A stretch of 64,000 bases of DNA, from positions 7,250,001 through 7,314,000 of the forward strand of contig CAMRHE010000012.1 of assembly GCA_947044405.1 (NCBI GenBank), in the 5' to 3' direction. Positions 9,994 through 63,283 of the stretch are shown piece by piece. Origin of the DNA: Leptodactylus fallax. Taxonomy: Eukaryota; Chordata; Amphibia; Anura; Leptodactylidae. Position 1 is the first letter of the stretch. Each line of letters begins with the position of its first letter. The notes under the pieces were generated by a model, which was not told the DNA's origin, did no database searches, and saw only the letters and a program-made list of their open reading frames with translations. Made by a program: the position numbers and the translations under genes.

Positions 9994-10203
9994 GAGGCCC
10001 CGAGGAGTGGAGGGAACATAAAAAACACTGTTACTTACCTCTCCTGTGCTACAGCAGGCTTTGGGCCTCCTTGGTGACGTCCCAGTCGTCGGTGGGCCAG
10101 TCCAATGTCATTATGCGAAGCGATGCATGCCTGGCTCATGTGACATCTGGTCCAACATTGAAGACTGAAGAAGTAGCGGGAAGTGCGCATAATACTATAT
10201 GAA

Positions 10204-10330
10204 GGGGCCACTATGGGGCATAATACTGTGTGCAGTGGCCACTATGGGACATAATACTGTGTGCAGGGGCCACTATGGGGCATAATAGTGTGTGCAGGGG
10301 CCACTATGGGGCATAATAGTGTGTGTAGGA
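10204..10330. repeat. ~30-bp tandem repeat (GGGGCCACTATGGGGCATAA)
   Basis: About four units of GGGGCCACTATGGGGCATAA followed by TACTGTGTGCA. The same unit occurs at 25172-25345 and, in reverse, at 55196-55470. Confidence 0.9.
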
Positions 10331-25171: not shown

Positions 25172-25345
25172 AGGGGCCACTATGGGACATAATACTGTGT
25201 GAAGGGGCCACTGTAGGACATAATACTGTGTGGAGGGGCCGCTATGGGACATTATACTGTGTGCAGGGGCCACTATGGTACATTATACTGTGTGTATGGA
25301 CCACTGTGGGACATCATACTGTGTGCAGGGTCCACTATGGGACAA
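25172..25345. repeat. ~30-bp tandem repeat in element B
   Basis: About six units of GGGGCCACTATGGGACATAA followed by TACTGTGTG. The same unit is found in elements A and C. Confidence 0.92.
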
Positions 25346-28173: not shown

Positions 28174-29780
28174 CAGTGGGGAAAAAAAGTATTTAGTCAG
28201 CCACCAATTGTGCAAGTTCTCCCACTTAAAAAGATGAGAGAGGCCTGTAATTGACATCATAGGTAGACCTCAACTATGAGAGATAAAATGAGAAAACATA
28301 TCTAGAAAATCACATTGTCTGATTTTTTAAGAATTTATTTGCAAATTATGGTGGAAAATAAGTATTTGGTCACCTACAAACAAGAAAGATTTGTGGCTCT
28401 CACAGACCTGTAACTTCTTCTTTAAGCGGCTTCTCTGTCCTCCACTCATTACCTGTAGTAATGGCTCCTGTTTGACATTGTTATCAGTATAAAAGACACC
28501 TGTCCACAACCTCAAACAGTCACACTCCAAAGTCTACTATGGTGAAGACCAAAGAGCTGTGGAAGGACACCAGAAACAAAATTGTAGACCTGCATCAGGC
28601 TGGGAAGACTGAATCTGCAATAGGCAAGCAGCTTAGTGTGAAGAAATCAGCTGTGGGAGCAAGAATTAAAAAATGGAAGACATACAAGACCACTGATAAT
28701 CTCCCTCGATCAGGGGCTCCACGCAAGATCTCACCCCGTGGGGTCAAAATGATCACAAGAACGGTGAGCAAAAATCCCAGAACCACACGGGGGGCCTAGT
28801 GAATGACCTGCAGAAAGCTGGGACTAATGTAACAAAGGCTACCGTCAGTAACACACTATGCCGCCAAGGACTCAGATCCTGCAGTGCCAGACGTGTCCCC
28901 CTGCTTAAGCCAGTACATATCCGGGCCTGTCTGAAGTTTGCTAGAGAGCAAACTTGGATGTTTCAGAAGAGTATTGGGAGAATGTTATATGGTCAGATGA
29001 AACCAAAGTAGAACTTTTTGGTAGAAACACAACTCGTCGTGTTTGGAGGAGAGTGAATGCTGAGTTGCATCCAAAGAACACCATACCTACTGTGAAGCAT
29101 GGGGGTGGCAACATCATGCTTTGGGGCTGTTTCTCTGCAAAGGGACCAGGACGACTGATCCGTGTACATGAAAGAATGAATGGGGCCATGTATCGTGAGA
29201 TTTTGAGTGCAAACCTCGTCCCATCAGCAAAGGCATTGAAGACGAAACGTGGCTGGGTCTTTCAGCATGACAATGATCCCAAGCACACCGCCAGGGCAAC
29301 AAAGGAGTGGCTTCGTAAGAAGCATTTCAAGGTCCTGGAGTGGCCTAGCCAGTCTCCAGATCTCAACCCCATAGAAAATCTTTGGAGGGAGTTGAAAGTC
29401 CGTGTTTCCCAGCGACAGCCCCAAAACATCACTGCTCTAGAGGAGATCTGCATGGAGGAATGGGCCAACATACCAGCAACAGTGTGTGCCAACCTTGTGA
29501 AGACTTACAGAAAACGTTTGACCTCTGTCATTGCCAAAAAAGGATAAATAACAAAGTATTGAGATTAACTTTTGTTATTGAGCAAATACTTATTTTCCAC
29601 CATAATTTGCAAATAAATTCTTTAAAAATCAGAGAATGTGATTTTCTGGATTTGTTTTCTCATTTTGTCTCTCATAGTTGAGGTCTACCTATGATGACAA
29701 TTACAGGCCTCTCTCATCTTTTTAAGTGGGAGAACTTGCACAATTGGTGGCTGACTAAATACTTTTTTTTCCCCCCACTG
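28174..29780 (+). mobile_element. Tc1 element 4 (same family as 19430 and 51001)
   Basis: TA-flanked (28172-28173 and 29781-29782), 1607 bp, with inverted ends CAGTGGGGAAAAAAAGTATT and its complement, arms over 100 bp. The gene is on the plus strand. High similarity to the other two family copies shows a shared amplification. Confidence 0.95.
28539..29547 (+). pseudogene. Tc1 (DD34E) transposase with two frameshifts
   Basis: Starts [10 protein letters not shown] and is open to about 28790, where a run of Gs (ACACGGGGGGCC) shifts frame. A second shift lies near 28945-28955. The catalytic core is then open to 29547: [39 protein letters not shown], with 34 residues between second Asp and Glu. 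Only small indels separate it from an intact frame, so inactivation is recent. Confidence 0.92.
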
Positions 29781-30779: not shown

Positions 30780-31800
30780 CTAGGGAGGGTTTCCTCGCCT
30801 TACAACGTCAAGGACTGTCTGACCAAAGGCAGTTGTCTGGGAACTGCGGACGTCTAAACGATAATGTTTAACAAAGGTCAACTGAGATGACCATGATGCA
30901 GCTGCACAAATCTGGTCCAATGGTAAGGACCGGTACTCAGCCCAAGAAGTCGACACAGCCCTGGTCGAGTGGGCCGTTGAAAAAACTGGAGGGAGTAACT
31001 CCTGAACAAGGAAGGAAGACTTAATTGTCTCCTTGATCCATGTGGATAGAGTAGGCTTGGAAGCCTTGAGGACTTTGTTTTTACCCTGCATGTTAATTAG
31101 TAGGTTTTCGGTCTTCCTAAACGGTTGAGTGCGGGATAGGTAAATCCGCAGACACCTTACCACATCTAAGGTGTGGAGCTTTTCTTCCTCCTCAGAGGTT
31201 GGAGTGGGGAAAAACACTGGTAGCGAAATTAGCTGATTGCTATTATAGCATGAGGGGACCTTAGGGTTAAACCCAGGCAAAAATCTAAGGTGCACCCTAT
31301 CTGCAAAAAACAAAATGTACGGTTCTCTAGAAGAGAGAGCCTGGAGTTCCCCTACTCTTTTGGCAGATGTAATAGCCAACAAAAAAGCGGTTTTGTAGGC
31401 TAAATATTTTAGCTCCGTAGTCTCCAAGGGTTCAAATGGAGGACCGCACAGGCCTGTAAGGACTACCGCAAGGTCCCACTGGGGAACTGGAGAGGATACT
31501 GAGGGCTTTAGCCTCATTGCCCCTTTAAGGAAACCTTGCAACCAGAGGATCTTGAGACAGACGTCTGTTCAAATGAGCGGAGAGGGTAGCAATCTGCACT
31601 TTCAAAGTGGCAGGGGCAAGGCCCTTATCCAAACCGTCCTGAAGAAAATTTAAAATATCAGCCATTGAAGGTTGTAGATTATTAATACCCTTCTTGGAGC
31701 ACCACTCCATGAAAATCTTGGCTGTCCTCTGGTAGTTCTTATTGGTAGAGTCTGCTCTTGCAGAAGAAAGAGTCTTCAGGACGGCCTCTGACAGTCCTCT
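30780..31800 (-). pseudogene. DIRS tyrosine recombinase, frameshifted
   Basis: The N-terminal core-binding part (LSSARADSTNKNYQRTAKIF) is at the end of the RT frame; a one-base shift near 31530 puts the catalytic part in the frame 30780-31541. Catalytic residues are visible: Arg in SAKRVGELQALS, the HxxR box in AHSTRAV, and Tyr in FVKHYRLDV near the C-terminus. This enzyme would recombine circular DIRS cDNA into the genome. Confidence 0.85.
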
Positions 31801-33834
31801 ATCCTGTTGTAGGGACTGCTCAACCTCCAGGCTGTCAGGTTGAATCTCCAGAGATCCTGACACTTCAGAGATCCTTGGGAAACCAGGTTCTGGATGGGGG
31901 GAAGCCTCCAATATATCCCTCGACTCATCTCCATGAGTTGGGAAAACCAAGCTCTTTTTGGCCAGAATGGAATGATGGCTATCACAGAGACTTGGTCCTG
32001 TCTGATTTTCATCAATACCTTCGGTATTATTGGAATTGGAGGGAAAAATGTATGCCAGCCTGGACCTCCGAGGGATGGACAGGGCATCCACTGCCAAGGG
32101 ATTGTCCTCCTGGTAAAGGGAACAGAACGTCTCCACCTTGGCGTTGAGTCGGGTTTCCATGAGGTCTATTTCTGGAAGACCCCACTTCAGGGTAATCTGA
32201 TGAAAGATTTCTGGATTGAGTGACCATTCTCCTGATACGGCATGACCCCGACTCAACCGATCCGCTACTATGTTCAGGGAGCCCTTGATGTGAACTGCGG
32301 ATAAATGGGTTAGATTTTTCTCTGCCCATGTAAATATCAGATCTACCTCCCTCAGGAGGGTTGGTGATCTGGTGCCTCCCTGTCTGTTCACGTACAGCAC
32401 TGTGGTCATGTTGTCTGACCGGATTTTGACTGCTCTTCCCTTGAGAAGAGGCGAGAAATGGAGTAAGGCACGATATACAGCTCTGAGCTCCTTCCAGTTG
32501 GACGAGGTCCTTCTTTCTGGAGCGCTCCAGACTGCCTTTATGGAGGTTTCGTCCAAATGGGCTCCCCATCCCAAGAGGGATGCATCTGTAGTCAACAGGG
32601 TCCAAGAAGGTTGGACCGTGGACCTTCCGTCTTTCAGGTGCAACCACCACTTGAGGGAAAGACGGGTCCTGGGGGAGAGTCGAATCTTCTTGCTGAGTGT
32701 AAGAAGGGAGCGATCCCAAGCCTCTAGTAATTCCTTCTGGAGGGGACGTAAGTGCCACAAAGCCCATGGGACTGCCTCCACTGAGGAAGACATCAAGCCC
32801 AGGATCTTCATCAATGTTCTGATGGAGGCTATCGGCTTTTTGAAGAGGTGCCGGACTGCACCGACCAGTTTCTCCTTCCTTGATGGTGTCAAGGAGACCT
32901 GCAGGCGGACTGAATCCAGGAAGTAGCCGAGGAACTTCCTTCGGGTTGAAGGGATCGTTACCGACTTCTCCCAGTTTATAAGCCATCCCAGACTCTGAAA
33001 CAGGGACACGGCTGTATGTAGATGCTGGAGCAGAACAGACTCTGACTGGGCTTTTATCAACCAGTCGTCTAGATAAGGCACCACGAATATCCCCTGAAGT
33101 CTGAGGGCGGCCGCTATAGGAGCCACTACCTTTGTAAAGGTGTGGGGAGCAGAGGAGATCCCGAAGGGTAGTGCTGTGAATTGAAAATGCTTCCTGTGGC
33201 CGGAAACTACTACGGCAATCCTTAGAAATCTTCTGTGTGGAGGATAAATAGGAATATGCAAATAGGCATCTTTTAGATCCAAAGTCACGAAAACATCGCC
33301 TTGGAGGAGAAAGGTGGTGACAGACTTTATGGTTTCCATACGAAAGTGCTTCTTTTTGATGAAGCGGTTGAGGTACCTTAAGTCTATGATCATTCTCCAC
33401 TTGTCTGCCGGTTTTGGTACCAGGAAGACGGGAGAATAGACACCGGATCCTTCTTCTAGAGAAGGGACTTCCTCCAGGGCTCCCTTGTGAATGTACTCTC
33501 AGATGGAGCATTCCAATGTAGTCTGATGCATTGTAGGGAGGCTGCGAGTTAACACAAACCGATCCTGTGGAGGATGGAGGAACTCGATTGCATATCCTTT
33601 CTGGATTACCTGCAGGACCCATGGGTCTCGAATTTTTTCCTGCCAGCAGTTGAAAAAATGGGAGAGACGACCCCCGACAGGAATCTCGGCCACAGGAAGA
33701 CTGCTCCTGATGTCAAAAGCTAGGCTTCTCCTTTTTATCATCAAACTTCGGGAATCTCTGGACGGCGCCTCTAGAGGAATATCTAGAGCCTCTTTGGGAC
33801 TGCCGTCCACGACGAGGCGGATAGCCTCTACCAC
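31525..33834 (-). pseudogene. DIRS reverse transcriptase-RNase H-methyltransferase-like frame
   Basis: One frame is open from 33834 except for a single TGA at 33499-33501. RT motifs: FVTLDLKDAYLHIPI, LPFGISSAPHTF and catalytic YLDD. RNase H motifs: LTTDASLLGWGA, WKELRAVYRAL and IRSDNMTTVLYVNRQGG. Then comes the DIRS-specific segment (LPEIDLMETRLNAKVETF ... DALS), likened to DAM methyltransferase. Between about 32040 and 31810 the family-like sequence runs in another frame (FFPPIPIIPKVLMKIRQD), so two small compensating indels are present. Confidence 0.88.
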
Positions 33835-34940
33835 GGCCAGAGTCAGATCTACCTCTAAAGGCCTGGGGTAAAGTTTTACCCTTCCTATTGGCCAAGCCCT
33901 CCAGGATCTCGTCTAGGGCACTGCCAAAGACTCTACCTGGCTCAAAGGGTAATGCGCACAAATTATATTTTGAGGGGAAAACAGCTCTCCAGGGTTTTAA
34001 CCATAGAGGTCTTGCTGCAGTGGTAAGTGCCTGGGATTTGGCCGCCAGCCTTAATTGATGGTGGGAGGCTTCCGCTAAATATTCAGCTGCCAGGGAAACC
34101 GAGCCTAGAAACCTGAGCAGCTCGTCTCTGGAGACTCCAGAGTCGATGTCCCTTTCGAGGTTGACCAGGTCAGTGTGTAATTTGGCTGACACTTCACAAG
34201 ACGCAACCGCCACAGAGGTCTGGGCCGAGGCAACTGAATACGCCTTCTTGAGGGTATTGTCGATGCGCCTGTCCATGGCGTCGTGCAAATTTGATCCATC
34301 ATCTGATGGTACCATAGTGCGGCGGGACAGTTTGGCCACTGCCATATCCACCTTGGGAGGAGGACCCCATTGATCCCATTGAGCAACTGGGAATAAAGCC
34401 TTGAACCTCCTAGAAACCACAAGAGGTTTTTCAGGACATTTCCACTCTGAAGACATTAATCTTTGTAATGTCTCGTCCACTTGGAAGACCCTAGGCCCTC
34501 TATAGGTGGACGTGGAGGCTTCCCCCGTCAACATCACGATCCTTAGACCGGATGGACTTCAGCAGCCGGCTTAGTGTTTCGAGTGGGAAGCACGGTCTGC
34601 TGGAATCTTCAGTGGAATCGTCAGATGAGAGTGTCTCGTCCACTATCTGATAATCTTCGTCAGCGATGCGTAGGGAAGACTGTGTCTCAACCCGCGGTTT
34701 CTTGGCAATCTGGGCGATGGAAGAACGGATCTCCTTAAGAGACTCCTCCATATAATCCTTTACCCAAGTGACAACCTCTCTTATAGAAGGTTCTTCTGAC
34801 GGAGGTCCGCGGCATTGGCGACAGTGGGTAAAATCATAGCCATCAGGTAAAGGAGTATTGCAATCCAAACACATTAGGTGTTTACGTTTAGAGGACTTTT
34901 TCCTCCTCAGCCCATCGCCGTTACCTGATGCAGAAGATGA
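33713..34940 (-). pseudogene. DIRS gag-like protein, one frameshift
   Basis: Likely start at MSSSASGNGDG (about 34940). An N-terminal zinc-binding pattern CLDC-x13-CRQC follows, then an acidic region; after a frameshift near 34530 the frame continues with ALFPVAQWDQWGPPPKVD and ends in an RG-rich tail (RGRGYPPRRGRQSQRG). The basic RG tail fits RNA binding. Its 3' end overlaps the beginning of the RT frame, as in DIRS elements. Confidence 0.75.
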
Positions 34941-35660: not shown

Positions 35661-38600
35661 AAGATGGCGCCGCTGGAGTGGCTGCCAGCTACAGCAGCTC
35701 TGAGACTCTCTATCTTATTTTTCTTTCTATGACTCGTTTTGTACCTCTATACTTAAGGACTTTGCACTATGAAACACACACAAAGACTTGGACCCTTGTG
35801 ATACTTTTTTTTTTTTTTTTTTTTGTTTTTTATCTGTCTTTTTGTTCTGCTTGAAAATGGGATCTTTTGTGTATGCAGACAATTCCTTTGTCTATACAAG
35901 AGAGGAAATTCTGCAGCTCAGAGGCACAGCAGGGGGGCATACCATCTGGTCACACATCCCCCGTGAGATTTGGAGAAAGAAAAAGCGGGTGAGGGGATGC
36001 AGAGCTGGTACTCTTCAGAGGATTAAAAAGAGGCGTTACCGACCAGCTGTTCCCTCCATCATCATGGGCAATGTGAGATCTCTTGCAAACAAGATGGATG
36101 AACTAACAGCGCTCACCAGGCAGCATCAGGAGTTTCGGGCGTGCAGCATGATGCTACTTACAGAGACTTGGCTCACTGAAGTTACTCCTGACCCTCTGGT
36201 CTCCTTGGATGGTTTTAAACTCCTTCGGGCAGACAGGACAAGGGAGAGCGGTAAGAGGAAAGGAGGGGGGCTGGCAATGTTTGTGAATAATAGATGGTGT
36301 AATCCTAGGCACATTGTGATTAAGGATCAAACTTGCTGTAAGGACATTGAACTATTAGCTGTGAGCATGAGACCTTTCTACCTACCAAGGGAACTATCAC
36401 ATGTCATCGTGATAGCTGCATATGTCCCCCCCTCTGCAAAAGCTGACGCTGCCTGCGAGGTCCTACAAGCCACGCTGAGCCAGTTACAGTCTCAGCACCC
36501 CCAGGCCCTCTTTCTTCTGTCGGGTGATTTCAACCATGCCTCTCCATCATCCACACTGCCCAGTTTCACACAGTATGTAACCTGCCACACAAGAGACAAC
36601 AAAACACTGGACTTGTTCTTTGCCAACGTGAGGGAGGCATATAACTCATCAGCCCTACCGCCCCTGGGAAGATCGGATCACAACCTAGTACATCTCCGAC
36701 CTGTGTACAAGCCACTTGTACGTAGAGAACCAGCTGTCACCCGCACAGTGAGGATATGTTCCGAGGAGAGTGATGAGGCTCTGAGGGATTGTTTTGACAC
36801 AACCGCATGGGAAGTTCTGCAGGATTCTTATGGGGAAGACATAGAAGGACTCACACACTGCATAACGGACTACATTAATTTTTGTGTGGACAACACAGTA
36901 CCCACAAAAGTGGTGAGGTGCTTCTCCAATAACAAACCATGGATTAACTCTGATATAAAAACACTACTTAAGGAGAAAAAGATGGCATTCAGGACAAGAG
37001 ATAAGGAGGGGTTGAGGGAAGTACAAAAGGAGCTGAGGCATCAAATCAGGCAGGGAAAAGCCAGTTATAAAGAAAAAATGGAAAAGCAAATGGAAAGAAA
37101 AGACATAAGGGGGGTGTGGGAGGGGCTTAAGTCAATTTCGGGTCATAAACAGTCTGTCTGCCAGATTGAGGCAGATGTTAATTGGCTTAATGAACTAAAC
37201 CTATTCTTCAACAGATTTGATCACACACCAGCTCCTCCCACCCCAGTATGTCCTTCAGCTCCCCCCACCACAATGACTTCTCCCTATGCGGCCACTTCCC
37301 AACAGACCAGTAAATCCAGAATTCCATCTTTATCTGGCCACAGTCTGACCTTCACACGGGCCCAGGTGAGGAAGGAGATGAAAAAGATCAAGGCGAGGAA
37401 AGCCGCAGGGCCAGATGACATCAGTGCAAGGCTAATTAAGACTTGCGGGGACCAGCTGTGTGGTATAATTACATATATGTATAATATGAGCCTGAGGCAG
37501 GAAATAGTCCCTGAATTATGGAAATCTTCTTGTGTGGTACCAGTTCCAAAGAAACCCCACCCTATGGACCTCAACGACTACAGACCTGTAGCACTGACAT
37601 CCCACCTGATGAAGATCTTGGAGAGATTGGTTCTCACACATCTCCGCCCTCTAGTGAGCCCCGCTATGGACCCACTCCAGTTTGCTTATCGGCCGGGCAT
37701 TGGGGTAGATGATGCCATCATCCATCTTCTGCACAGGGCTCTGTCTCACCTGGAGAAACCAGGGAACACGGTGAGAATAATGTTCTTTGACTTCTCCAGT
37801 GCTTTTAACACCATACAGCCCAGGTTATTGAGGGACAAGCTGGGCCTTGCTGGAGTGGACCACCACCTCTCCAACTGGATCCTAGACTACCTCACAAATC
37901 GACCTCAATACGTGAGAGCCCGAGACTGTGTGTCAGGTACCGTGATCTGTAATACGGGGGCACCTCAGGGTACGGTTCTCGCCCCTTTCCTCTTCACACT
38001 GTACACTGCAGATTTTAGGTGCAACTCATCCAGCTGCTACCTACAGAAGTATTCTGACGACTCTGCAATAGTGGGTCTCATCACAGATGATGATGACAGG
38101 GAGTACAGAGAACTGAACCAGCATTTTGTGGACTGGTGCCACCGGAACCACCTGAAGATTAACGCGGGGAAGACCAAGGAGATGGTGGTGGACTTCCGCA
38201 AAGGCAGAAGCCCTCCTAAACCAGTGGACATCCTGGGGACGGGCATCGAGATTGTGAACACCTATAAGTACCTGGGTTTGCTCCTTAATAATAAGCTGGA
38301 CTGGGCAGATCATATGGAGGCCCTGTACAGGAAGGGCCACAGCAGGATCTACCTGCTTAGGAAACTGAGAGCCTTTGGAATCCGGGGGGCACTTCTTAGA
38401 ACTTTCTTCAACTCGGTAGTGGCATCAGCCATCTTCTTTGGAGTGGCCTGCTGGGGGAGCAGTATATCAACCAGGGACAGAAATAAACTTGACAAGCTGA
38501 TTAGAAGGGCCAGCTCTGTCCTGGGGAGCCCACTGGACCCAGTGCAGGTGGTGGGTGACAGAAGGATACTGTCCGTGGTGAGCTCCATGCAGAAGAAGAA

Positions 38601-38976
38601 GTCCCATCCCATGCATGAGACTGTGATCGCGCTGAGCAGTACTGTCAGTGACCGACTGCTCCACCCTAGGTGTGAGAAGGAGCGCTATCGGAAGTCTTTC
38701 CTCCCCCACCGCGGTTAGGCTGTACAACCAACACCGACCTAAGCGGAGATCATTACACACAGAGAACTGAAATATCTCTCTGCCTGTTAAATCCCCCCCC
38801 CCCCCCTCTGCTACGCCCTATCTGTCTGTCTGCTATTAATGTAATGCCTCTCACCTTGGAACATTCCTGTACATGTTGTATTTGTATTTGTATCTGCTTA
38901 TCTTATCTTATCTTTGCTGCTGTAACACACTGAATTTCCCCATTGTGGGACTATTAAAGGATTATTATTATTATTA
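35661..38976 (+). mobile_element. Rex1/CR1-group LINE, apparently full length
   Basis: Starts AAGATGGCGCCGC, a YY1-type promoter motif common at the 5' end of full-length LINEs, preceded by a T-run. It ends with CTGAATTTCCCCATTGTGGG, then an (ATT)n tail. Start and end motifs suggest no 5' truncation. It encodes one long open frame with endonuclease and RT. It is inserted in the DIRS terminal repeat and therefore younger. Rex1 affiliation is from recalled motif similarity. Confidence 0.88.
35788..38718 (+). CDS. LINE ORF2-type protein: AP endonuclease and reverse transcriptase
   Basis: 976 codons, open throughout. The apurinic-type endonuclease covers roughly residues 90-300: Asn in MGNVRSL, Glu in LLTETWL, Tyr in AAYVPPS, GDFNH, and the final GRSDHNL. 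RT spans about residues 560-830: LNDYRPVALTS, FFDFSSAFNTI, GAPQGTVLAPFLFTLY and catalytic YSDD near residue 755, then KTKEMVVDF and YKYLGLLL. The protein nicks target DNA and copies its own RNA there. The first ~23 codons include a poly-Phe run encoded by a T-tract; the Met of MGSFVYAD is an alternative start. No stop or frameshift, so it may be functional. Confidence 0.9.
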   Translation: MDPCDTFFFFFFCFLSVFLFCLKMGSFVYADNSFVYTREEILQLRGTAGGHTIWSHIPREIWRKKKRVRGCRAGTLQRIKKRRYRPAVPSIIMGNVRSLANKMDELTALTRQHQEFRACSMMLLTETWLTEVTPDPLVSLDGFKLLRADRTRESGKRKGGGLAMFVNNRWCNPRHIVIKDQTCCKDIELLAVSMRPFYLPRELSHVIVIAAYVPPSAKADAACEVLQATLSQLQSQHPQALFLLSGDFNHASPSSTLPSFTQYVTCHTRDNKTLDLFFANVREAYNSSALPPLGRSDHNLVHLRPVYKPLVRREPAVTRTVRICSEESDEALRDCFDTTAWEVLQDSYGEDIEGLTHCITDYINFCVDNTVPTKVVRCFSNNKPWINSDIKTLLKEKKMAFRTRDKEGLREVQKELRHQIRQGKASYKEKMEKQMERKDIRGVWEGLKSISGHKQSVCQIEADVNWLNELNLFFNRFDHTPAPPTPVCPSAPPTTMTSPYAATSQQTSKSRIPSLSGHSLTFTRAQVRKEMKKIKARKAAGPDDISARLIKTCGDQLCGIITYMYNMSLRQEIVPELWKSSCVVPVPKKPHPMDLNDYRPVALTSHLMKILERLVLTHLRPLVSPAMDPLQFAYRPGIGVDDAIIHLLHRALSHLEKPGNTVRIMFFDFSSAFNTIQPRLLRDKLGLAGVDHHLSNWILDYLTNRPQYVRARDCVSGTVICNTGAPQGTVLAPFLFTLYTADFRCNSSSCYLQKYSDDSAIVGLITDDDDREYRELNQHFVDWCHRNHLKINAGKTKEMVVDFRKGRSPPKPVDILGTGIEIVNTYKYLGLLLNNKLDWADHMEALYRKGHSRIYLLRKLRAFGIRGALLRTFFNSVVASAIFFGVACWGSSISTRDRNKLDKLIRRASSVLGSPLDPVQVVGDRRILSVVSSMQKKKSHPMHETVIALSSTVSDRLLHPRCEKERYRKSFLPHRG

Positions 38977-43055: not shown

Positions 43056-43719
43056 TGTAACAAAATATAACAGTAAGGAATTTCCTTTACAGTATTTTCT
43101 AATGTACAGTACTGAACTATACTGTATATCTAAGCAAATATATTAAGTGTGAAATAAATGAGTACATTAAAGGAGAGCATTGGCGTGCTTTTTGAGTTTT
43201 TTTTAAACTATAAGAAGTTCAGTATGCTTACATTTTCATATCCAATTAATTTAATAGATTGAAGTACAGTGGAGCATACATAATTTTAATTTCCTGAAAG
43301 TATAAAATTTTGGATTCCTGACCTCTTTCACTACCCATACAGATACCTCACAACTCATGAGATAGACTAGTTTCGAAAAGACTGCAACACCTGCTAAATA
43401 TGAAATAAAAATAAACCTAAAGTTAATACTCATTTTTCTTGCAAAGAATAACAGTCATTATAGGTTTTCTTTACTTTGTGGGAAAACTTCTGTGATTTTA
43501 AAGAAAAGCAGCAGAGACTTGTATCATTCATCTATACAATGTTGAGTTTATATATGTACTGTATAAGTTATGTATTGTAGCTATGACCTATTAGGGAAAA
43601 CCTAGTTAATTGAGGGCCATCTCCTAATTGGAACTTTGGATGGAAAGCTAGAATTGTTTGAATTGTTTTGTAAAGTAGTCCTCACATTGTGAGATCAGGC
43701 CTGTCTTTGTATTGCACGT
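41871..43719. other. Mostly unassigned; Tc1 end fragment and TA repeat
   Basis: About 42540-42575 (GGTCAGGTGTCTACATACTT, TTGGCCATAAAGTG) resembles the outer end of a vertebrate Tc1/mariner element but no partner end is visible. A TA microsatellite lies at 43023-43053. About 41898-41930 resembles the AGGGGTTATCCCA end of a TTAA-type MITE. No gene. Confidence 0.5.
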
Positions 43720-44155
43720 TGTGAAAGCTTGGAGGAATTAAACTCAAAATGGCGGCTTGTCCTGGTCCGGACAGCGGTGGTTCGTGGTACTGGGCGCCGG
43801 AAAGATAGCTTTCAGACGGTCCAAGTGTAAAATAAAACGTGGCTTTATTCAGCTTAACTGCAACATAACAAAAACAACAAACACCTAGGGCCACAGTTAG
43901 GGCACTAACTGACTCCTTGAGTCCCTAACTAGCCTCTGGGGCAATAAGAGCCTGACTTAGTCTTTGTAAGTCCTCTCTGGATCCAAGCCCTCTGGGACAG
44001 ACTGCCTCTCTGTCCTAGGTTGGTCCACCATTTCCTGCTCCAAGCAGGTTTCTCCAGCCTTCTGGAGATACACGCCCCCCTCAAAGGCGTGGCTGAGAGC
44101 CTTTTCAGGGCTAGGCCTGGGTCGCTCAACAGCGCCCTCTGGCTACATACTCACA
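43720..44155 (-). repeat. 3' LTR of the captured-gene element
   Basis: 436 bp. On the minus strand it opens TGTGAGTATGTAGCCAGAGG and ends GAATTCCTCCAAGCTTTCACA-like (TTTCACA). It holds the AATAAAGCCACGTTTTATTT polyadenylation region about 100 bp from its end. No clear TATA box was seen. Differs from its partner by about eight substitutions and two single-base indels. Confidence 0.92.
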
Positions 44156-44971
44156 TACCCTCTCCCTCAGCTCACTACCCATGGGGTGAGCTACAATGGG
44201 ACGAGACATCCTATGATGAAGTCCCTCTTCAACCAAATATGCCTGTTCAGTGTCTCTCCAGAAGTCCCAGTCAGGCGGTCTTTTCTTCCAAATACTGCTC
44301 TGTCGAGTTCTACGTTTTCTCATCACTTTAAAGTCCCAATCTGGCGGTCTCTTCTTCCAAATTCCGCTCAGTCGAGTTTTCCGTTTTTTCAGCACTTTAA
44401 ATGCTACGCCAAGATCCTGGCCATTCTGTACAAAGGCAAGTTCTCCTTCATCACCTTCACAATTCGCCATACAGGGGATCACATCATTTTCATCACATTT
44501 CTCGCCGTACTCTTCAGCCATCCCATTGCATAACCTTGATCCCTTTAGTAAATAGCTGGAAGAATCTTCATCTTTACCTATCATGAATCCACAGGAGCTC
44601 AGAGACCAACTAACACGTACTTCATGCACATCAATGTCTTTAGAGTATAACTGTATCACGGGAACTTTTTCCGTAACCTTCATTTCAAAGCAAACTTTGC
44701 CATCACCATCAAGGCTTAGAAGTTTAGGAGACATAGGCCGCTTGCTCTCAGCTTTGTTTGAGATACACAAGCTCTGTACCGCAATATCTTCTCCTTTTGC
44801 ACAAGGGCCATACCGTGCACCCTCACATAATAGATCACGCTGAACTACATTTTCTGGTATGTCTTTTAACAACTGTCCCATCATTGGTGACATGTAGCCA
44901 TCTCTTACTTCTGCACGCAAATGACGGCTGCTCAGTCTCTGCATTAGAACCTCTACCACGGTTACTTCCAT
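44126..44971 (-). CDS. Captured-gene ORF3: hnRNP U-type SPRY domain with tandem tail
   Basis: 281 codons, in the same frame as ORF1/ORF2. Residues ~90-194 match the SPRY domain of hn[52 protein letters not shown], and [11 protein letters not shown]. The nuclear RNA-binding protein's SAP, ATPase-like and RGG parts are absent. After it come two 23-residue repeats ending [10 protein letters not shown] (69-bp DNA units at 44263-44400), then a tail that reads across the purine tract 30 bp into the 3' LTR. A start Met is present at 44971, but it may be internal to a longer original frame. Confidence 0.8.
44158..44171 (-). promoter_or_regulatory. Polypurine tract
   Basis: Minus strand GCTGAGGGAGAGGG, two bases before the 3' LTR. 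This is the position and composition of the plus-strand priming site in LTR retroelements. Confidence 0.65.
44263..44400 (-). repeat. 69-bp tandem duplication in ORF3
   Basis: Two units beginning AGTCCCA on the plus strand at 44263 and 44332, about 85% alike by eye, both keeping frame and coding ...[11 protein letters not shown]. Confidence 0.85.
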
Positions 44972-45024
44972 TAGTTAGGGACTTAGTAACATTGTATCTC
45001 AGCCTCTTCTTGTTGCTATTAGTA

Positions 45025-45462
45025 TCAGGCGGTAAAACACCTTCTGCCCTCTTCTCTTTTTGGGTTGACTATATTATTTCCTGACTCCCCCTTCACAGAC
45101 AACATGGAGTCATTTTTCACCATTTGTCCACCCGACATTTGGCTAGAGACAGACACAGCAACACCTTTATCCACAATGGCTTCAGACACTTTAGCTGTTG
45201 GAACAACATATGCATGGTCAGTCTTCTTACGGATTCTTGTTCCACACTTTTGATGACCCTTCACCTTATTTACCATCTCACAGCCCTCTAGGCTTTGGAC
45301 CTCATTGGTTTGAAGCTGGACCCACTCTGTCACAGGCAGTGTGTGACCAATCACAGTTTTTTCTTCTGTTGGACCTTCTTTGGCCTCCTCACATTTTGCA
45401 GGAAGTCCACCTTTAGCAGCATCTTCCTGGGGAACTATACCCTCTACTTGATGTTTTACCAC
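45025..45462 (-). pseudogene. Captured-gene linker frame, origin unknown
   Basis: A 145-codon frame shifted relative to ORF2 and ORF3, overlapping ORF2's end by 50 bp. The segment is hydrophilic, Lys/Glu/Val-rich (GIVPQEDAAKGGLPAKCEEA, GHQKCGTRIRKKTDHAYVV) and I do not recognise it. It is open where neighbouring frames are closed, so I read it as part of the same original frame displaced by two indels, near 45440 and 45025. It could be retroelement-derived or from another host gene. Confidence 0.5.
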
Positions 45463-46156
45463 GTGGTTTTATCATAATCTGATCATTGGTATCAACATTA
45501 GTGGACAGGTCACTCATGTCTGTCTGACTTAATGATTCTCCTTTCTCTGCCTCTATGCTGGCAGCTTTCCCCAATTCTAACGCCTTCTGTAGCGCACAAA
45601 CCTCTGATTCCAGTTCCAGAACTTTCTTCACTGCCACATCTTTCTGAGCAGCCTCCATCTCAGCCTTCACCATTGCAACTTGCAGATCTTCCTCAATCTT
45701 CCTGACATCCTCTATGGCAGCAGATGTAGATGCCATCTCTTTATCCACTATGTCTCCCAATTCTAGGATATTCTGCAGTGTTCTTCCAACATTTGTCAGG
45801 TCAGCATCCTGGATAATATTTTCTGCTTCCCTCACTGTTCCCTGAACTATATTGAACTGATCCTCCAACATCTTCTGATAAAGCTTCTGCTCATCTGCAG
45901 ACTTTTTGTCAAGTCTTTCATTCAAGTCCCGTATCTCAGTGGCTCTCTTATCTTGCTCTTGGTTGAATAAAGACTCTATTTCTTGAATCACATTTTTCAG
46001 GGATAACAGCTCTGATTCTTTAGAGGTTAACAGGTTCTGCAGCGAGTCTCTCTCAGCTTCTAGTGCTGCCAGCTTTGCAGATAGGGAAGATGCCGACTGT
46101 TCAGTATTGGATAAAGACTGCTGCAATCGATCCAATTCTTCTCTTTTAGATTCCAC
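45413..46156 (-). pseudogene. Captured-gene ORF2: HIP1/HIP1R-like segment
   Basis: In frame with ORF1 after a single TAA; the first sense codon is GTG, so it is a continuation and not a separate start. Residues 1-100 are coiled coil (SLSAKLAALEAERDSL). Then MLEDQFNIVQGTVREAENII and ELGDIVDKEMASTSAAIEDV match the HIP1 family, the latter being the start of the actin-binding THATCH (I/LWEQ) region, and VLELESEV resembles its C-terminal end. About 150 residues normally between the first two blocks are reduced to about 15, so it is a deleted copy. In HIP1 these parts link clathrin coats to actin. It ends in a probable frameshift near 45440. Confidence 0.75.
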
Positions 46157-47821
46157 TTAGGTTTTTGACTGTTCAATCTGAAAAGTGCGCTCTTCCAACT
46201 TTATTTCTGACTCACACTTCACTTGATCCATCTGAAACTCCAGCTGTTCCTTGATTTCCTCCTGCTTGTTCACTTGCACCTTTAGTTTAGCAACAAGCAT
46301 TTTTAGATCTACAATCTCAGTAGATAAATTAGACAGGTTTCCCTCAAACTGAATCCTCATGTCTTCTATCTGGAGGTCCAATTCTCTCTTGGCCTTTTCC
46401 AGCATCTCATAAGCATTAGCTTTGTTCTCATACAATATCTGCACAGATTCCAGGTTTTTCTCAACTTCATCCTTGGAGCTAACCAAATCCTCCATTTCAG
46501 TGCGCAGTTGCTTGTTGAGCCTCTTTAACTTGGCCTTCAATTCAAGGGCCTCTGCTTCAGCACTGTCACGTTCTTCTGCATATCTAGCAGAAAGAGTCTT
46601 CTCTTCACCAAGCCGCTGATCAAACTTTTTCTGCTTCTTTTTCAAATTTGACACAATCCGATGTTGATGATCAAGATCTACACCTACATCTTCTAGTTCC
46701 TGCTGTAGTCTATTTTTCATCTTCTCAAGTTTGTCATAAGCAGCAACCTTCTCCTCAAACCGTTGATTTGTAGCTTCTAGCTCCTTTTGCAACTTTTCCT
46801 TTAGTTCTTCAACAGAGTCCAAGGACCCAATACTATCCTCCATTTTTTTCTTCATATCAGTCGCCTGAGCCTGTAGTGTTGAAATCTGCTTTGTCAAATC
46901 TCTTTTTGCTATCCCCTCTTCTTCTAGTTGCTCAAGGAAACCATTTTTCTCATCTTCCATTTGTTTTAGTTTTGTACTAAGGTCAAGCTTCTGACGGGTT
47001 TCTTCTTGCAAAAGTTCCTGAGTGTCCTGAAGCTGGGATTCTAGTGTAGAAAAATCTTTGGAAAGTTTGATAAACTTGCTGTCTGCTTGAGAAAGAAGCC
47101 CTGTAACATTATTCAATTCTTTGTCTTTATTTTGCACCAAAACAGACAACTTCTCATTATCTTCACAAGATCCTGACAGCGTCCTCTCCAGGCTACATAT
47201 TCTAGCTTTGAATTCCCTTTCTCTTTGTTTAGCAGTTTCAAGCTCATCTCTCAATTTTTCAATGACACTCTCTTTGGCAATGGAGTCTTGAACACGCTGC
47301 TCCTTTAAATCCTGCAATTGCTTCTCAAGCACTTGCTTTTGCTCTACACTCTGTATGACTTCATTAGATACAGCACATTTCATTTCAGCAAACTCCTTCT
47401 TAGTGACACAGTCCATTCCAGGCAAACCCAGCACCACATTTTTACAATGACTAGAATTTGAACTCCTCATAGATTCAAGATCTTTCTTTAACTTCAGGTT
47501 CAACTTAACATTAGATTCAAGATTTTTCTTTGACTGCAGTTCTAATACCTCAAATTGCCGTTTAATCTCATCTTGAAGCTGCTGCACCCTAATATTTTCA
47601 TCTTTGGCGCTTTCATGCACTCCAATATGAGACATACAATCAGCAGGGACATATTTATTCATAGAACAGAGGTACTTTAGAAAAACTGAGTCACCATCAT
47701 GCAACCCTTTATCTTTACTTGCATTCCACATGATCTGTTCCGGGTTTTGTGTCTCTCTGCATTCAGACTGCTGCACTAATAAACCTGTGCATAACTTCTC
47801 TGCTTTTTTACAAGCTGACAT
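46157..47821 (-). CDS. Captured-gene ORF1: novel coiled coil plus non-muscle myosin II rod
   Basis: 554 codons from [10 protein letters not shown] to a TAA at 46157-46159. Residues 1-230 are unfamiliar and become strongly heptad-like from about residue 75. Residues ~235-455 match the rod of non-muscle myosin II heavy chain (MYH9/MYH10 type): [89 protein letters not shown]. Segments present in the myosin rod are missing, for example after AEAEA, so it is a condensed copy. There is no motor domain. In myosin this region forms the dimeric tail that assembles filaments. Same-frame ORF2 follows directly. Confidence 0.85.
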
Positions 47822-48278
47822 TCTCTTTTACTTGCCCATGGTTTACTAACAAGATTACACAATATTCCACAGCAACATTTTTTGCTATCTTCTGCAGTCA
47901 CATGTATTCAAACAGTTAACTTATGTGGCACTACAACAACCAGCATTTTCTTCTGTCTGCCACAGAAACACCAACATGGCACCATAGCCTTTCACATAGA
48001 CTGTTTGCAATATCCAGCTTCTACACACATTGCTTATTTTCTTGCCATCAGCAAAACACTTCACAGACTTCTGTGCCACAGTATACACAAAGTCCATTCC
48101 CTGGATTCCTCTTCCAGTGTTTTACTTTCACCTTGCTATGTTGCAATTCATTCACCCCCTCCTGGGTTTCTTCAGTTGAAATCACCGATTTCTTCCAGCT
48201 GTAAGCCACAATGCACACTTTGCATTACTGCAGTCACCAAACTCTTGTCTTCCAGGACTTGCGTGGATCTCTTTATGC
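47822..48278 (-). other. Leader between primer site and ORF1
   Basis: About 460 bp without a minus-strand open frame of note. Plus-strand frames here are antisense chance frames. It is the expected 5' untranslated/packaging leader of the element RNA, by position only. Confidence 0.5.
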
Positions 48279-48294
48279 GCGCTATTCTCCACCA
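48279..48294 (-). promoter_or_regulatory. Putative primer-binding site
   Basis: Two bases inside the 5' LTR the minus strand reads TGGTGGAGAATAGCGC. TGG next to an LTR is the usual tRNA primer-site start. The first eight or nine bases would pair with a tRNA ending CTCCACCA (alanine-type end, from memory); the rest does not obviously match a tRNA. Confidence 0.5.
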
Positions 48295-48296
48295 TA

Positions 48297-48732
48297 TGTG
48301 AAAGCTTGGGGGAATTAAACTCAAAATGGCGGCTTGTCCTGGTCCGGACAGCGGTGGTTCATGGTACTGGGCGCTGGAAAGATAGCTTTCAGACGGTCCA
48401 AGTGTAAAATAAAACGTGGCTTTATTCAGCTTAACTGCAACATAACAAAAACAACAAACACCTAGGCCACAGTTAGGGCACTAACTGACTCCTTGAGTCC
48501 CTAACTAGCCTCTGGGGCAATAAGAGCCTGACTTAGTCTTTGTAAGTCCTCTCTGGACCCCAGCCCTCTGGGGACAGACCGACTCTCTGTCCTAGGCTGG
48601 TCCACCATTTCCTGCTCCAAGCAGGTTTCTCCAGCCTTCTGGAGATACACGCCCCCCTCAAAGGCGTGGCTGAGAGCCTTTTCAGGGCTAGGCCTGGGTC
48701 GCTCAACAGCGCCCTCTGGCTACATACTCACA
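48297..48732 (-). repeat. 5' LTR of the captured-gene element
   Basis: Partner of the left LTR at the same length. It would supply the promoter for the genomic RNA read on the minus strand. AATAAAGCC is present near 48420. Confidence 0.92.
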
Positions 48733-48736
48733 ACGT

Positions 48737-51000: not shown

Positions 51001-52598
51001 CAGTGGGGAAAAAAAGTATTTAGTCAGCCACCAATTCTGCAAGTTCTCCCACTTAAAAAGATGAGAGAGACCTGTAATTGACATCATAGGTAGACCTCAA
51101 CTATGAGAGACAAAATGAGAAAACATATCTAGAAAATCACATTGTCTGATTTTTTAAAGTATTTATTTGCAAATTATGGTGGAAAATAAGTATTTGGTCA
51201 CCTACAAACAAGCAAGATTTCTGGCTCTCACATACCTGTAACTTCTTCTTTAAGATGCTCTTCTGTCCTCCACTCATTACCTGTAGTAATGGCTCCTGTT
51301 TGACATTGTTATCAGTATAAAAGACACCTGTCCACAACCTCAAACAGTCACACTCCAAACTCCACTATGGTGAAGACCAAAGAGCTGTGGAAGGACACCA
51401 GAAACAAAATTGTAGACCTGCACCAGGCTGGGAAGACTGAATCTGCAATAGGCAAGCAGCTTGGTATGAAGAAATCAACTGTGGGAGCAATAATTAGAAA
51501 ATGGAAGACATACAAGACCACTGATAATCTCCCTCGATCAGGGGCTCCACACAAGTTCTCACCCCGTGGGGTCAAAATGATCACAAGTACAGTGAGCAAA
51601 AATCCCAGAACCACACAGGGGGACCTAGTGAATGACCTGCAGAAAGCTGGGACTAACGTAACAAAGGCTACCGTCAGTAACACACTACACTGCCAGGGAC
51701 TCAGATCCTGCAGTGCCACACGTGTCCCCCTGCTTAAGCCAGTACATATCCAGGCCCATCTGAAGTTTTCTACAGAGCATTTGGATGTCCCAGAAGATTA
51801 CTGGGAGAATATCATATGGTCAGAGGAAACCAAAGTAGAACTGTTTGGTAGAAACACAACTCGTCATGTTTGGAGGAGAGTGAATGCTGAGTTGCATCCA
51901 AAGGACATCGTACCTACTGTGAAGCATGGGGGTGGCAACATCATGCTTTGGGGCTGTTTCTCTGCAAAAGGACCAGGACGACTGATCGGTGTACATGAAA
52001 GAATGAATGGGGCCATGTATAGTGAGATTATGAGTGCAAACCTCCTTCCAGGGCATTGAAGATGAAACGTGGCTGGGTCTTTCAGCATGACAATGATCCC
52101 AAGCACACCGCCAGGGCAATGAAGGAGTGGCTTCGTAAGAAGCATTTCAAGGTCCTGGAGTGGCTTAGCCAGTCTCCAGATCTCAACCCCATAGAAAACC
52201 TTTGGAGGGAGTTGAAAGTCCGTGTTGCCCAGCGACAGCCCCAAAACATCACTGCTCTAGAGGAGATCTGCATGGAGGAATGGGCCAACATACCAGCAAC
52301 AGTGTGTGCTAACCTTGTGAAGACTTACAGAAAACATTTGACCTCTGTCATTGCCAACAAAGGATATATAACCAAGTATTGAGATGAACTTTTGTTATTG
52401 ACCAAATACTTATTTTCCACCATAATTTGCAAATAAAATCTTTAAAAATCAGACAATGTGATTTTTTGGATTTGTTTTCTCTTTTTGTCTCTCATAGTTG
52501 AGGTCTACCTATGATGTCAATTACAGGCCTCTCTCATCTTTTTAAGTGGGAGAACTTGCACAACTGGTGGCTGACTAAATACTTTTTTTTCTCCACTG
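51001..52598 (+). mobile_element. Tc1 element 5 (same family as 19430 and 28174)
   Basis: 1598 bp flanked by TA (50999-51000 and 52599-52600), with ends CAGTGGGGAAAAAAAGTATT and its complement. The gene is on the plus strand with one break. Confidence 0.95.
51367..52382 (+). pseudogene. Tc1 (DD34E) transposase with one small deletion
   Basis: Open from [10 protein letters not shown] through [10 protein letters not shown] to about 52055, then continued in another frame: [14 protein letters not shown] and [15 protein letters not shown] to 52382. Compared with the copy at 28174, about 7 bp are missing near 52050 (CCTTCCAGGGCATT against CCATCAGCAAAGGCATT). In addition the first catalytic Asp is changed to Glu (SEET for SDET). 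Both changes should inactivate it. Confidence 0.92.
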
Positions 52599-55139: not shown

Positions 55140-56015
55140 CAGGGGTAGGCAACCTTTTTTGTTCGGCGTGCCGATTTTAAATAAAAAATCAAAGATGTCC
55201 CATAGCATCCCCTGCACACCGTATTATGTTCCATAGCGTCCCCTGCACACCGTATTATGTCCCATAGCTGCCCCTGCACACCGTATTATGTCCCATAGCG
55301 TCCCCTGCACACTGTATTATGTCCCATAGCTGCCCCTGCACACTGTATTATGTCCCATAGCGGCCCCTGCACACTGTATTATGTCCCATAGCGGTCCCTG
55401 CACACGATATTATGCCTCATAGTGGTCCCTGCACTGTATTATGTCCCATAGTGGTCTCTGCACATGGTATAACATTCTAACTTTCATAATTTTTACCACT
55501 CACTAGCTATAATTATACTGTGGGGTCTCTTCAGACCCCTGAGTATAATAAGTGGAGGGCCAAGAGAGGTGACAAACATAAAAAAACAATGTACTTACAG
55601 TTTCCTGCGCTCCGCAGCCGCTCTGTTCTCTTCGGGCGCTTCTGCCTGTAGTCAGCGACCGCTGTTTGGTTCTCAGGGGTCACGTTGCGTCCTTATGCGT
55701 AATGACGTCGGACGTGACCCAAGAGGTCCTGCCAGCTATCTCTTACGTCAGACAAGAAGCACCCGAAGAGCAGACAGCGGCTGCGGAGCGCCGGAAAGGT
55801 GACTTACATTGTTTTTTCTATGTTTCATCACTTCTCCTGAGCCTCCGCTTATTATACTCAGGGGTCTGAAGAGATCCCCGAGTATAATAACAGCAGTTTC
55901 GTTTCGGTTGTGTTTGATCCGATCGAAACTGCTGCGAGAGGACTCCGCTGCCGTGCCAGGGAAATATGCCTCGTGCGCCGCTCTTGGCACACGTGCCGGG
56001 GGTTGCCGACCCCTG
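55140..56015. mobile_element. hAT-type non-autonomous element C
   Basis: Ends CAGGGGTAGGCAACC and GGTTGCCGACCCCTG, flanked by TTATATAA and CTATATAA (8 bp, one mismatch). No transposase. The interior has the reversed ~30-bp tandem unit (55196-55470) and two palindromes (about 55507-55552, 55848-55892), as in elements A and B. An inverted pair CAGCAGTTTCG...CGAAACTGCTG spans about 55890-55935. Confidence 0.75.
55196..55470 (-). repeat. ~30-bp tandem repeat in element C
   Basis: About nine units of TGTCCCATAGCGGCCCCTGC followed by ACACTGTATTA, the reverse complement of the unit at 25172 and 10204. Confidence 0.92.
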
Positions 56016-62021: not shown

Positions 62022-63283
62022 ATGGATCCTATTCAGGGCCTTGCGGCCAAGTTGGAAGGTTTGGTAGGCCTGGTAGCTGAGCTTACTAAACAGGTGCAGA
62101 CCCTTACTGATGCTGCTGCAGCATCTCCGGTTGTTTCTGCCCCTTTCAGGGTTAAGATGTTACTCCCGGATCGTTTTTCAGGGGATCGTGAAAAATTTGA
62201 GACTTTCCGGGAGTCCTGTCGCCTGTATTTTCGGATTAACCCACACGCATCCCAGGCCCAAATGGTGGGAGTAGTTATACCCCTCCTACAGGGGGATCCA
62301 CAAGCTTGGGCCCTTAAACTCCCTCCTGGGGCTGAGGAGTGGATTAACTTTGAAAAAAATTTTTTGTCCCTGGGCCATATGCTGAGCCAGACCACAATGG
62401 ACTTGCAGAATCGCAACTTCTCACTATGCGGCAGGGCAAATGCTCTGCTGAGGAATACTGCTCAGAATTTCGCAAGTGCTGTGTAACTGCAGGTTGGTGT
62501 GAGTCAGCTCTAAAGGCCCACTTTAAACAAGGCCTATGTGACTGTGTTAAGGAGGTCTGGGTTGGTCACCCAGATCCCCCCACTCTTGAGCAGGCCATGA
62601 CTTTGGCTGTCCGTATTGACCGTAGGATCCGGGAAAATGTTAAAGAGAGAATAGGGTCTGCTTCTTCCAAGTTTTCTGTCTCTCCCTCACTCTCTCCTGA
62701 AAAACCTGTTATTTCTTCCATGACTCCTGGTGAGGAACCCATGCAACTGGGAGTTATGGATGCCAAGACGCGACGAGAGTATCGTCTCAGGAACAACCTC
62801 TGCCTGTACTGTGGTTCTTCCGGTCATTTCATCCGTGACTGCTCGACCAGACCTCGCAGACCAGCAGAAAAGCTTCAGTGCCTGAGTGGTAATCAGAAGA
62901 ACCACTCAGGCAACCAGGTATTTGCTGATATGATTTCTCTGCACACTTTAAATTGTGTTACTGAGGAGACTGTCTCGGCTGCTAAAAGTGGGAAACACCA
63001 GGTGAATAAAAAATGTTTGCCTGGCCCACCAGTGTCTGTGGTTGTGCAAAAAGACCCTGAATTTAAGGCAGAAAAAATACTGGGTCCTACTAAAACTGGT
63101 TTATCTGGTGAGGGTTCGGTGGCCCCTCATAAAGGGGGGGGTACTGTAACGTCTCTGCCTGTTCGGGTCTCTGCGCCACCCTCTGCTCGCACGCTGCGGC
63201 GAAGGAGGTGTATTCAGTTTGATTCCTTGCGTAGGTTTCTTGTTGCTCAGTCTGAACATGGTCCTAGTTCCCTTGCTGTGTAA
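62022..63283 (+). pseudogene. Gypsy-type gag, one frameshift
   Basis: Starts MDPIQGLAAKLEGL (62022). A short coiled-coil-like start is followed by the capsid-type segment MLLPDRFSGDREKFETFRES and VIPLLQGDPQAWA, typical of vertebrate Ty3/gypsy gag and PEG10/RTL-type relatives. A frameshift near 62350-62385, in or beside the A- and T-runs, moves the rest to the frame seen from 62426: CSAEEYCSEFRKC, then a CCHC zinc knuckle (CLYCGSSGHFIRDC) near 62800. Gag would form the particle that packages element RNA. The tail lacks any protease motif. Confidence 0.85.

Follow-up and report, generated by a model that had tools for sequence, protein, structure and literature searches.

LTR Elements That Carry Host Coding Sequence

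One example of a long terminal repeat (LTR) retroelement that has taken up host genes is Bs1 of maize, whose chimeric gene, according to a passage of a 2026 review, is a fusion of segments from three genes of its host (proton ATPase, xylan endohydrolase and beta-1,3-glucanase; PMC13317346). Here we compare with Bs1 an LTR element of 5,013 bp from the frog Leptodactylus fallax, found in a stretch of 64,000 nucleotides (assembly GCA_947044405.1, contig CAMRHE010000012.1, positions 7,250,001 to 7,314,000 of the forward strand; hereafter, the window), in which host coding segments are likewise fused in frame between the LTRs. Bs1 is a low-copy element that has retained some gag. It belongs to a plant and holds three genes, whereas the frog element belongs to a vertebrate, combines pieces of at least four genes (MYH9, HIP1R, Bucky ball/Velo1 and HNRNPU), has its HIP1R piece at 150 or more scored places and shows no viral coding sequence that we could see. 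The frog element is Bs1-like in principle; in practice, it is a vertebrate element with more genes and many copies. The original prediction for this locus, made from the DNA sequence alone, had treated Bs1 as a case of single-gene capture, which the three genes credited to it in that part of the review correct (PMC13317346).

In vertebrates, the crocodilian LTR elements CrocERV29 and CrocERV31 carry captured host mRNA (KIT-ligand; nectin3) and have spread in the genome, as reported in a section of one study (PMC4299795). These elements hold one host gene each beside their viral genes, whereas in the frog element several host genes replace the viral ones. Transducing retroviruses such as Rous sarcoma virus and walleye epidermal hyperplasia virus, the latter with two cyclin-like open reading frames (ORFs) according to the same section (PMC4299795), are similar in that spliced host mRNA lies between LTRs. 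They usually carry one or two genes, act in growth control and are infectious, whereas the frog element carries at least four, is endogenous and has no growth gene that we could see. Two-gene transducing viruses are also known from birds. LTR-mediated retroposition in metazoans is explained by the same kind of template switch that we propose for the frog element, between the RNA of an LTR element and an mRNA (PMC5408686). The cases described by Tan et al. in 2016 are reportedly mostly single retrocopies. LARD and TRIM elements likewise have LTRs and a purine tract without gag-pol; they also have a primer site and are moved in trans, both of which are putative in the frog element. By the usual definition they contain no long ORF, whereas intact copies of the frog element have one of 1,139-1,303 codons. 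Among the open-licence papers listed, judged by titles and the beginnings of abstracts, none describes a vertebrate LTR element that carries three host genes or more.

One Chimeric Frame Between Two LTRs

The copy in the window is one complete LTR element that spans positions 43720-48732 in minus orientation; all parts listed below, except the target site duplication, lie on the minus strand. Its LTRs are 436 bp long (5' LTR, 48297..48732, with AATAAA at LTR position 307; 3' LTR, 43720..44155), have TG...CA ends on the sense strand and are 98% alike (per repeat block), with a Kimura two-parameter (K2P) distance of 0.0187. Comparison of the flanks reveals a target site duplication, ACGT, on the left (43716..43719) and on the right (48733..48736). 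The polypurine tract GAGGGAGAGGG (44158..44168) lies ahead of the 3' LTR and is present in all 14 copies that have two LTRs. The predicted coordinates were exact, and LTR length and ends, duplication and purine tract are as first predicted. A plausible primer site had been predicted as well, and a possible one of 9 nt, TGGTGGAGA (48286..48294), follows the 5' LTR after 2 nt; it would fit the 3' end of a tRNA-Ala.

Between the LTRs, a leader of about 460 nt is followed by an ORF that fills the interior and runs, in this order, through an N-terminal stretch, MYH9, HIP1R, MYH9 again, either a segment termed MID or the 5' part of Bucky ball, the 3' part of Bucky ball, HNRNPU and a C-terminal stretch. 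In the copy at locus L019 every piece is in one frame, with 1,139 codons from the first methionine, and in L024 the frame is open over 1,199 codons with a different start. Three further copies (L037-L039), selected for long open frames, are open over 1,231-1,328 codons, with 1,229-1,303 from the first methionine. L011 has the same order in one frame, split by a Tc1-type transposon. In the window copy, which has two stops, most of the ORF is still in one frame; its pieces appear as separate ORFs, and the breaks between them are decay. The captured genes, described at first as pieces, are not loose fragments but form one continuous chimeric ORF in intact copies. Around the HIP1R piece at 150 scored places, the median open frame is 552 codons, and 20 places have one of at least 900 codons.

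Sources of the Captured Pieces

The N-terminal stretch of the window copy (47120..47821), the start of its 554-residue ORF, is followed by the main MYH9 piece (46343..47119), which corresponds to residues ~1281-1542 of the myosin rod and is 72% identical to the Phyllobates protein. The ORF matches the Pfam family Myosin_tail_1 (2.3e-75), and the best matches of the piece are the myosin-9 proteins of Phyllobates, Dendrobates and Dendropsophus, so that the non-muscle myosin II rod of the original prediction is that of MYH9. HIP1R piece 1 (45803..46255; 81% to Eleutherodactylus) and piece 2 (45689..45814; residues ~746-804 of Bufo HIP1R) come next, with residues ~475-639 joined to 746-804, a skip inside HIP1R. 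The family predicted for this part, HIP1, was right; its member is HIP1R rather than HIP1, given that nearly all named protein matches are HIP1R and one is named HIP1. Because of the break in its ORF, the window copy reaches only 26.4 bits against the HIP1 Pfam model, short of the cut-off of 28.8; in five other copies the score is 50.6-66.1 bits. A second MYH9 piece (45542..45757; residues ~1055-1132), whose alignment overlaps HIP1R piece 2, lies upstream of residues ~1281-1542 in MYH9 yet downstream of them in the element.

The next host gene is Bucky ball/Velo1, which had been missed at first. In the window copy its piece (44705..44872; residues 233-288, 71% to Leptodactylus) stands behind MID (44873..45541), which replaces the 5' part. 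A long version, residues 124-288 with 77% identity to the Leptodactylus protein, is found in 6 of 31 copies, and the other 25 keep just the 3' part, most of them behind MID. The name rests on a Hymenochirus homologue (62-65%); other frog records are unnamed, uncharacterized or hypothetical. According to passages of two papers, Bucky ball, Velo1 in Xenopus, is a germ plasm organiser (PMC6219760; PMC5080839). One of these assigns the amyloid-forming motif of Velo1 to the N-terminal BUVE region and includes non-muscle myosin II as a control to which zebrafish Buc did not bind (PMC6219760, in the same part). The captured piece, which begins at residue 124 in frog numbering, is without most of the BUVE region. 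Its end (44705) and the start of the HNRNPU piece (44704) are adjacent bases in the window copy. The HNRNPU piece (44387..44704) corresponds to residues 281-386, is 80% identical to the Leptodactylus protein and bears out the predicted hnRNP U SPRY domain. A 69-bp tandem duplication (44262..44401) marks the C-terminal end of the coding region.

All captured pieces lie in the sense direction of the element, as predicted, and they appear intronless, as judged by collinearity with proteins. Their identities of 71-85% to particular frog proteins over 56-240 residues rule out chance similarity between coiled coils. The three host genes proposed at the outset were found, and the count was wrong; with Bucky ball/Velo1 there are at least four, and the second MYH9 piece had also been overlooked. 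No fused protein like the whole element ORF appeared in the 120 best of 3,276 protein matches, the best of which covers 42%. The HIP1R protein of Mixophyes fleayi (P0123), considered as a sign that another frog carries the element too, was rejected as such; its high score is due to an internal coiled-coil duplication of about 100 residues that is unrelated to the element.

A Mobile Family of Many Copies

An LTR query gave 3,341 first-look candidates in the 2.5-Gb genome, of which 40 were scored, and the Pfam model of the HIP1 clathrin-binding domain, an independent entry, gave 3,369 candidates, of which 150 were scored, all above the curated cut-off; candidates are not copy counts, and the firm figure is at least 150 places for the HIP1R piece. 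As a control, the HIP1 model gave signal in 1 of 14 control genomes (Haloferax), with none above the cut-off. A single-copy artefact is ruled out by the LTR candidates and the scored HIP1R places.

From the 40 scored LTR matches 20 loci were taken, paired ones first, and four were added later; 18 of these 24 loci have a chimeric interior and six are solo LTRs. The 31 interiors compared comprise the window copy, 15 from the first 20 LTR loci (L019 has two), eight from loci found with the HIP1 model, the three long-frame loci and four from the later LTR loci. Translated matches (tblastn) were discarded below 40% identity for the eight HIP1-model loci, 42% for L037-L039 and the four later LTR loci, 55% for the frame layout and 50% for the comparison of all 31 interiors. 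In the last of these, every one of the 31 interiors has MYH9, HIP1R, Bucky ball and HNRNPU in that order, as far as each piece is present. All four host pieces are present in 27 interiors and Bucky ball and HNRNPU in every one; at 50% identity or more, the main MYH9 piece is missing from L013 and L041, and HIP1R piece 1 from L015 and from the second copy in L019.

Among the 14 two-LTR copies, ten have an exact 4-bp target duplication and all ten duplications differ, although that of L019 sits in an AT repeat and carries little information; in L028 the duplication is 5 bp. The K2P distance between the two LTRs of a copy ranges from 0.0068 to 0.0231. At a rate of 2-3e-9 changes per site and year, this would place the insertions very roughly one to six million years ago. 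Collectively, the constant order and the distinct duplications support the mobile multi-copy family that had been proposed, and a many-copy LTR family with several unrelated host genes in sense agrees with its description as a gene-carrying passenger that has spread. The LTRs of L038, L039 and the second copies in L019 and L025 are only ~80-91% like the window LTR and enclose the same kind of interior; they look like an older or separate LTR subfamily.

Missing Viral Genes and Probable Movement in trans

The prediction of no gag or pol between the LTRs held. Pfam detected no gag or pol domain in the 11 ORFs scanned (among them the Tc1 ORF of L011), and none of the 31 interiors was matched by any of three reverse-transcriptase ORFs from the window and from L018. 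With these enzymes missing from the element, its movement would have to occur in trans. A Ty3-type pol ORF at L018 (7070-9901, minus strand), near a solo LTR of the chimeric family, was considered as a helper and rejected: it ends almost 1.9 kb before that LTR, which has no purine tract, and it belongs to another element. The solo LTR itself sits in what, by eye, looks like coding sequence of piggyBac type.

Several other mobile elements lie in the window. A 285-residue gag-like ORF with a CCHC motif (62426-63283, plus strand) perhaps belongs to a Ty3-type element running off the window. ORFs at 30780-34537 (minus strand) resemble reverse transcriptase/RNase H and a recombinase and look like a DIRS-type element. 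A 976-residue ORF (35788-38718, plus strand) with endonuclease and reverse-transcriptase features, which looks like a long interspersed nuclear element (LINE), served as a control query against the 31 interiors. Tc1-type transposase ORFs are found at 15283-16332 (minus strand), 28954-29547 (plus strand) and 51367-52059 (plus strand), and the ORF inside the L011 copy is assigned by Pfam to the same type. Additionally, three related 31-bp tandem arrays occupy 10187-10329, 25172-25344 and 55195-55464.

Template Switching as the Probable Route of Capture

We consider it very probable that this family of a hyloid-type frog is a non-autonomous LTR retroelement of high copy number, built by repeated template switching onto spliced host mRNAs and mobilised in trans. 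In germ cells, the reverse transcriptase at work on packaged element RNA would have jumped time and again to spliced transcripts of the host, and the product would have retained the LTRs, the putative primer site and the leader. Since then, transcription would have started from the element's own LTR, and a gag-pol helper would have provided packaging and copying in trans. Modules have been exchanged after capture: 6/31 copies have the 5' Bucky ball part and 25/31 lack it, most of these with MID in its stead. Template switching is favoured because coding pieces of four genes share one frame, and because of the skip in HIP1R, the permuted MYH9 pieces and the swap between Bucky ball and MID. Switching between LTR-element RNA and mRNA is itself a published model, as set out in part of one paper (PMC5408686).

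Two other routes could be imagined. LINE and Tc1 elements are present, and a Tc1-type element did enter the L011 copy, so that LINE-made processed copies might have been added serially to an ordinary LTR element by insertion at the DNA level; however, Bucky ball and HNRNPU abut at adjacent bases of one frame, and neither poly(A) nor a duplication was seen at their junction. The HIP1R and MYH9 pieces, moreover, are internal parts of coding sequence, and all pieces run in sense and in one frame, which makes this route very unlikely. Read-through transduction of neighbouring genes, in the manner of 3' transduction, is a recognised route of capture by retroelements according to the review passage on Bs1 (PMC13317346), but here four different genes have contributed, and their pieces are coding, internal and fused in one frame between LTRs, which renders it scarcely credible.

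A number of observations weigh against capture by template switching followed by movement in trans. The primer-site match is only 9 nt; three of the 14 two-LTR copies (L011, L021 and L024) have no clean target duplication; and no gag-pol helper was found at the 24 LTR loci. Neither Pfam nor a PDB search gave a source for the N-terminal and MID stretches, nor did Pfam, the sole search made, for the C-terminal one.

The phylogenetic placement of the pieces fits a capture inside hyloid frogs, as far as trees of chosen sequences can indicate it. The three trees contained 23, 20 and 19 chosen host rows (frogs and outgroups). The MYH9 pieces group with dendrobatids, Rhinoderma, Dendropsophus and Bufo (support 99/95), and the HIP1R pieces with Bufo, Engystomops, Ranitomeya, Eleutherodactylus and Dendropsophus (93/97), all of them hyloid frogs; the HNRNPU pieces group with Leptodactylus (90/76) inside a weak 67/78 group.

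Is the Chimeric Protein Maintained?

A long ORF in many copies raises the possibility that the frame has been kept because its product is of use to the element or to the host, as a domesticated or selfish germ-line protein, which would make the family more than a passenger. In line with this, of the ten pairs that five long-ORF copies make, nine have an uncorrected ratio of nonsynonymous to synonymous divergence (dN/dS) of 0.44-0.69, and the remaining one, the closest pair, has 0.92; the bootstrap interval lies below 1 in eight of the ten. However, when changes were redistributed with matched neighbours, the ratio of nonsynonymous to synonymous changes was 0.75-1.34 of expectation, with P<0.05 in 1/10 pairs, and the same pairs read out of frame gave 1.02-1.42 and 0.74-1.33. 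Moreover, since an open frame was the criterion by which these five copies were chosen, their lack of stops is no evidence.

Comparisons by piece are divided as well. The corresponding ratio within the family (pN/pS) is 0.61 for MYH9, 0.67 for HIP1R and 0.60 for the 3' Bucky ball part with HNRNPU, versus 0.99 for the N-terminus (14-16 copies per piece), and 1.49 for the 5' Bucky ball piece, for which there are two copies only. Shared changes show no significant excess of synonymous ones, and among singletons such an excess is significant for the N-terminus alone (P 0.024). Singleton stops are scarce in the MYH9 piece (1 versus 4.7 expected, P 0.02). Changes avoid host-invariant HIP1R sites (0/28 versus 14/96, P 0.04), defined from P0124-P0229 of 120 HIP1R matches with the Mixophyes protein excluded; replacements in MYH9 give a less clear picture (12/145 versus 15/95, P 0.09), and neither Bucky ball nor HNRNPU shows a host-site preference. 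Fixed differences between subfamilies, nine in total, are too few for use. In two comparisons, one being that of the fixed differences, rows covering less than 40% or 50% of the piece were excluded. The signals are mixed and on balance do not demonstrate selection on the chimeric protein, and we regard a maintained protein as unlikely.

A more specific version, to which we give somewhat less credence still, is that the element evolved a working replacement protein from host parts, in which a coiled-coil scaffold of MYH9 and HIP1R, the germ-plasm piece of Bucky ball and the ribonucleoprotein piece formed by the HNRNPU SPRY domain would concentrate its RNA or particles in oocyte germ plasm or aid packaging by the helper. 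If so, the captured genes would have become a transmission device.

Implications for LTR Elements and Frog Genomes

As this family demonstrates, a vertebrate-type LTR element that has lost its viral coding sequence, and that carries one ORF joined from at least four unrelated host genes, can nevertheless reach high abundance. How often, and in which cell type, reverse transcriptase jumps between packaged mRNAs thereby opens to test in frogs; a germ-plasm gene is among the sources, and therefore oocytes are pointed to as the cells of capture. The element also bears on the formation of multi-domain proteins at the RNA level and on how passengers find a helper. For the annotation of such a genome it carries a warning, in that many of its myosin-, HIP1R- and HNRNPU-like ORFs are repeats rather than genes.

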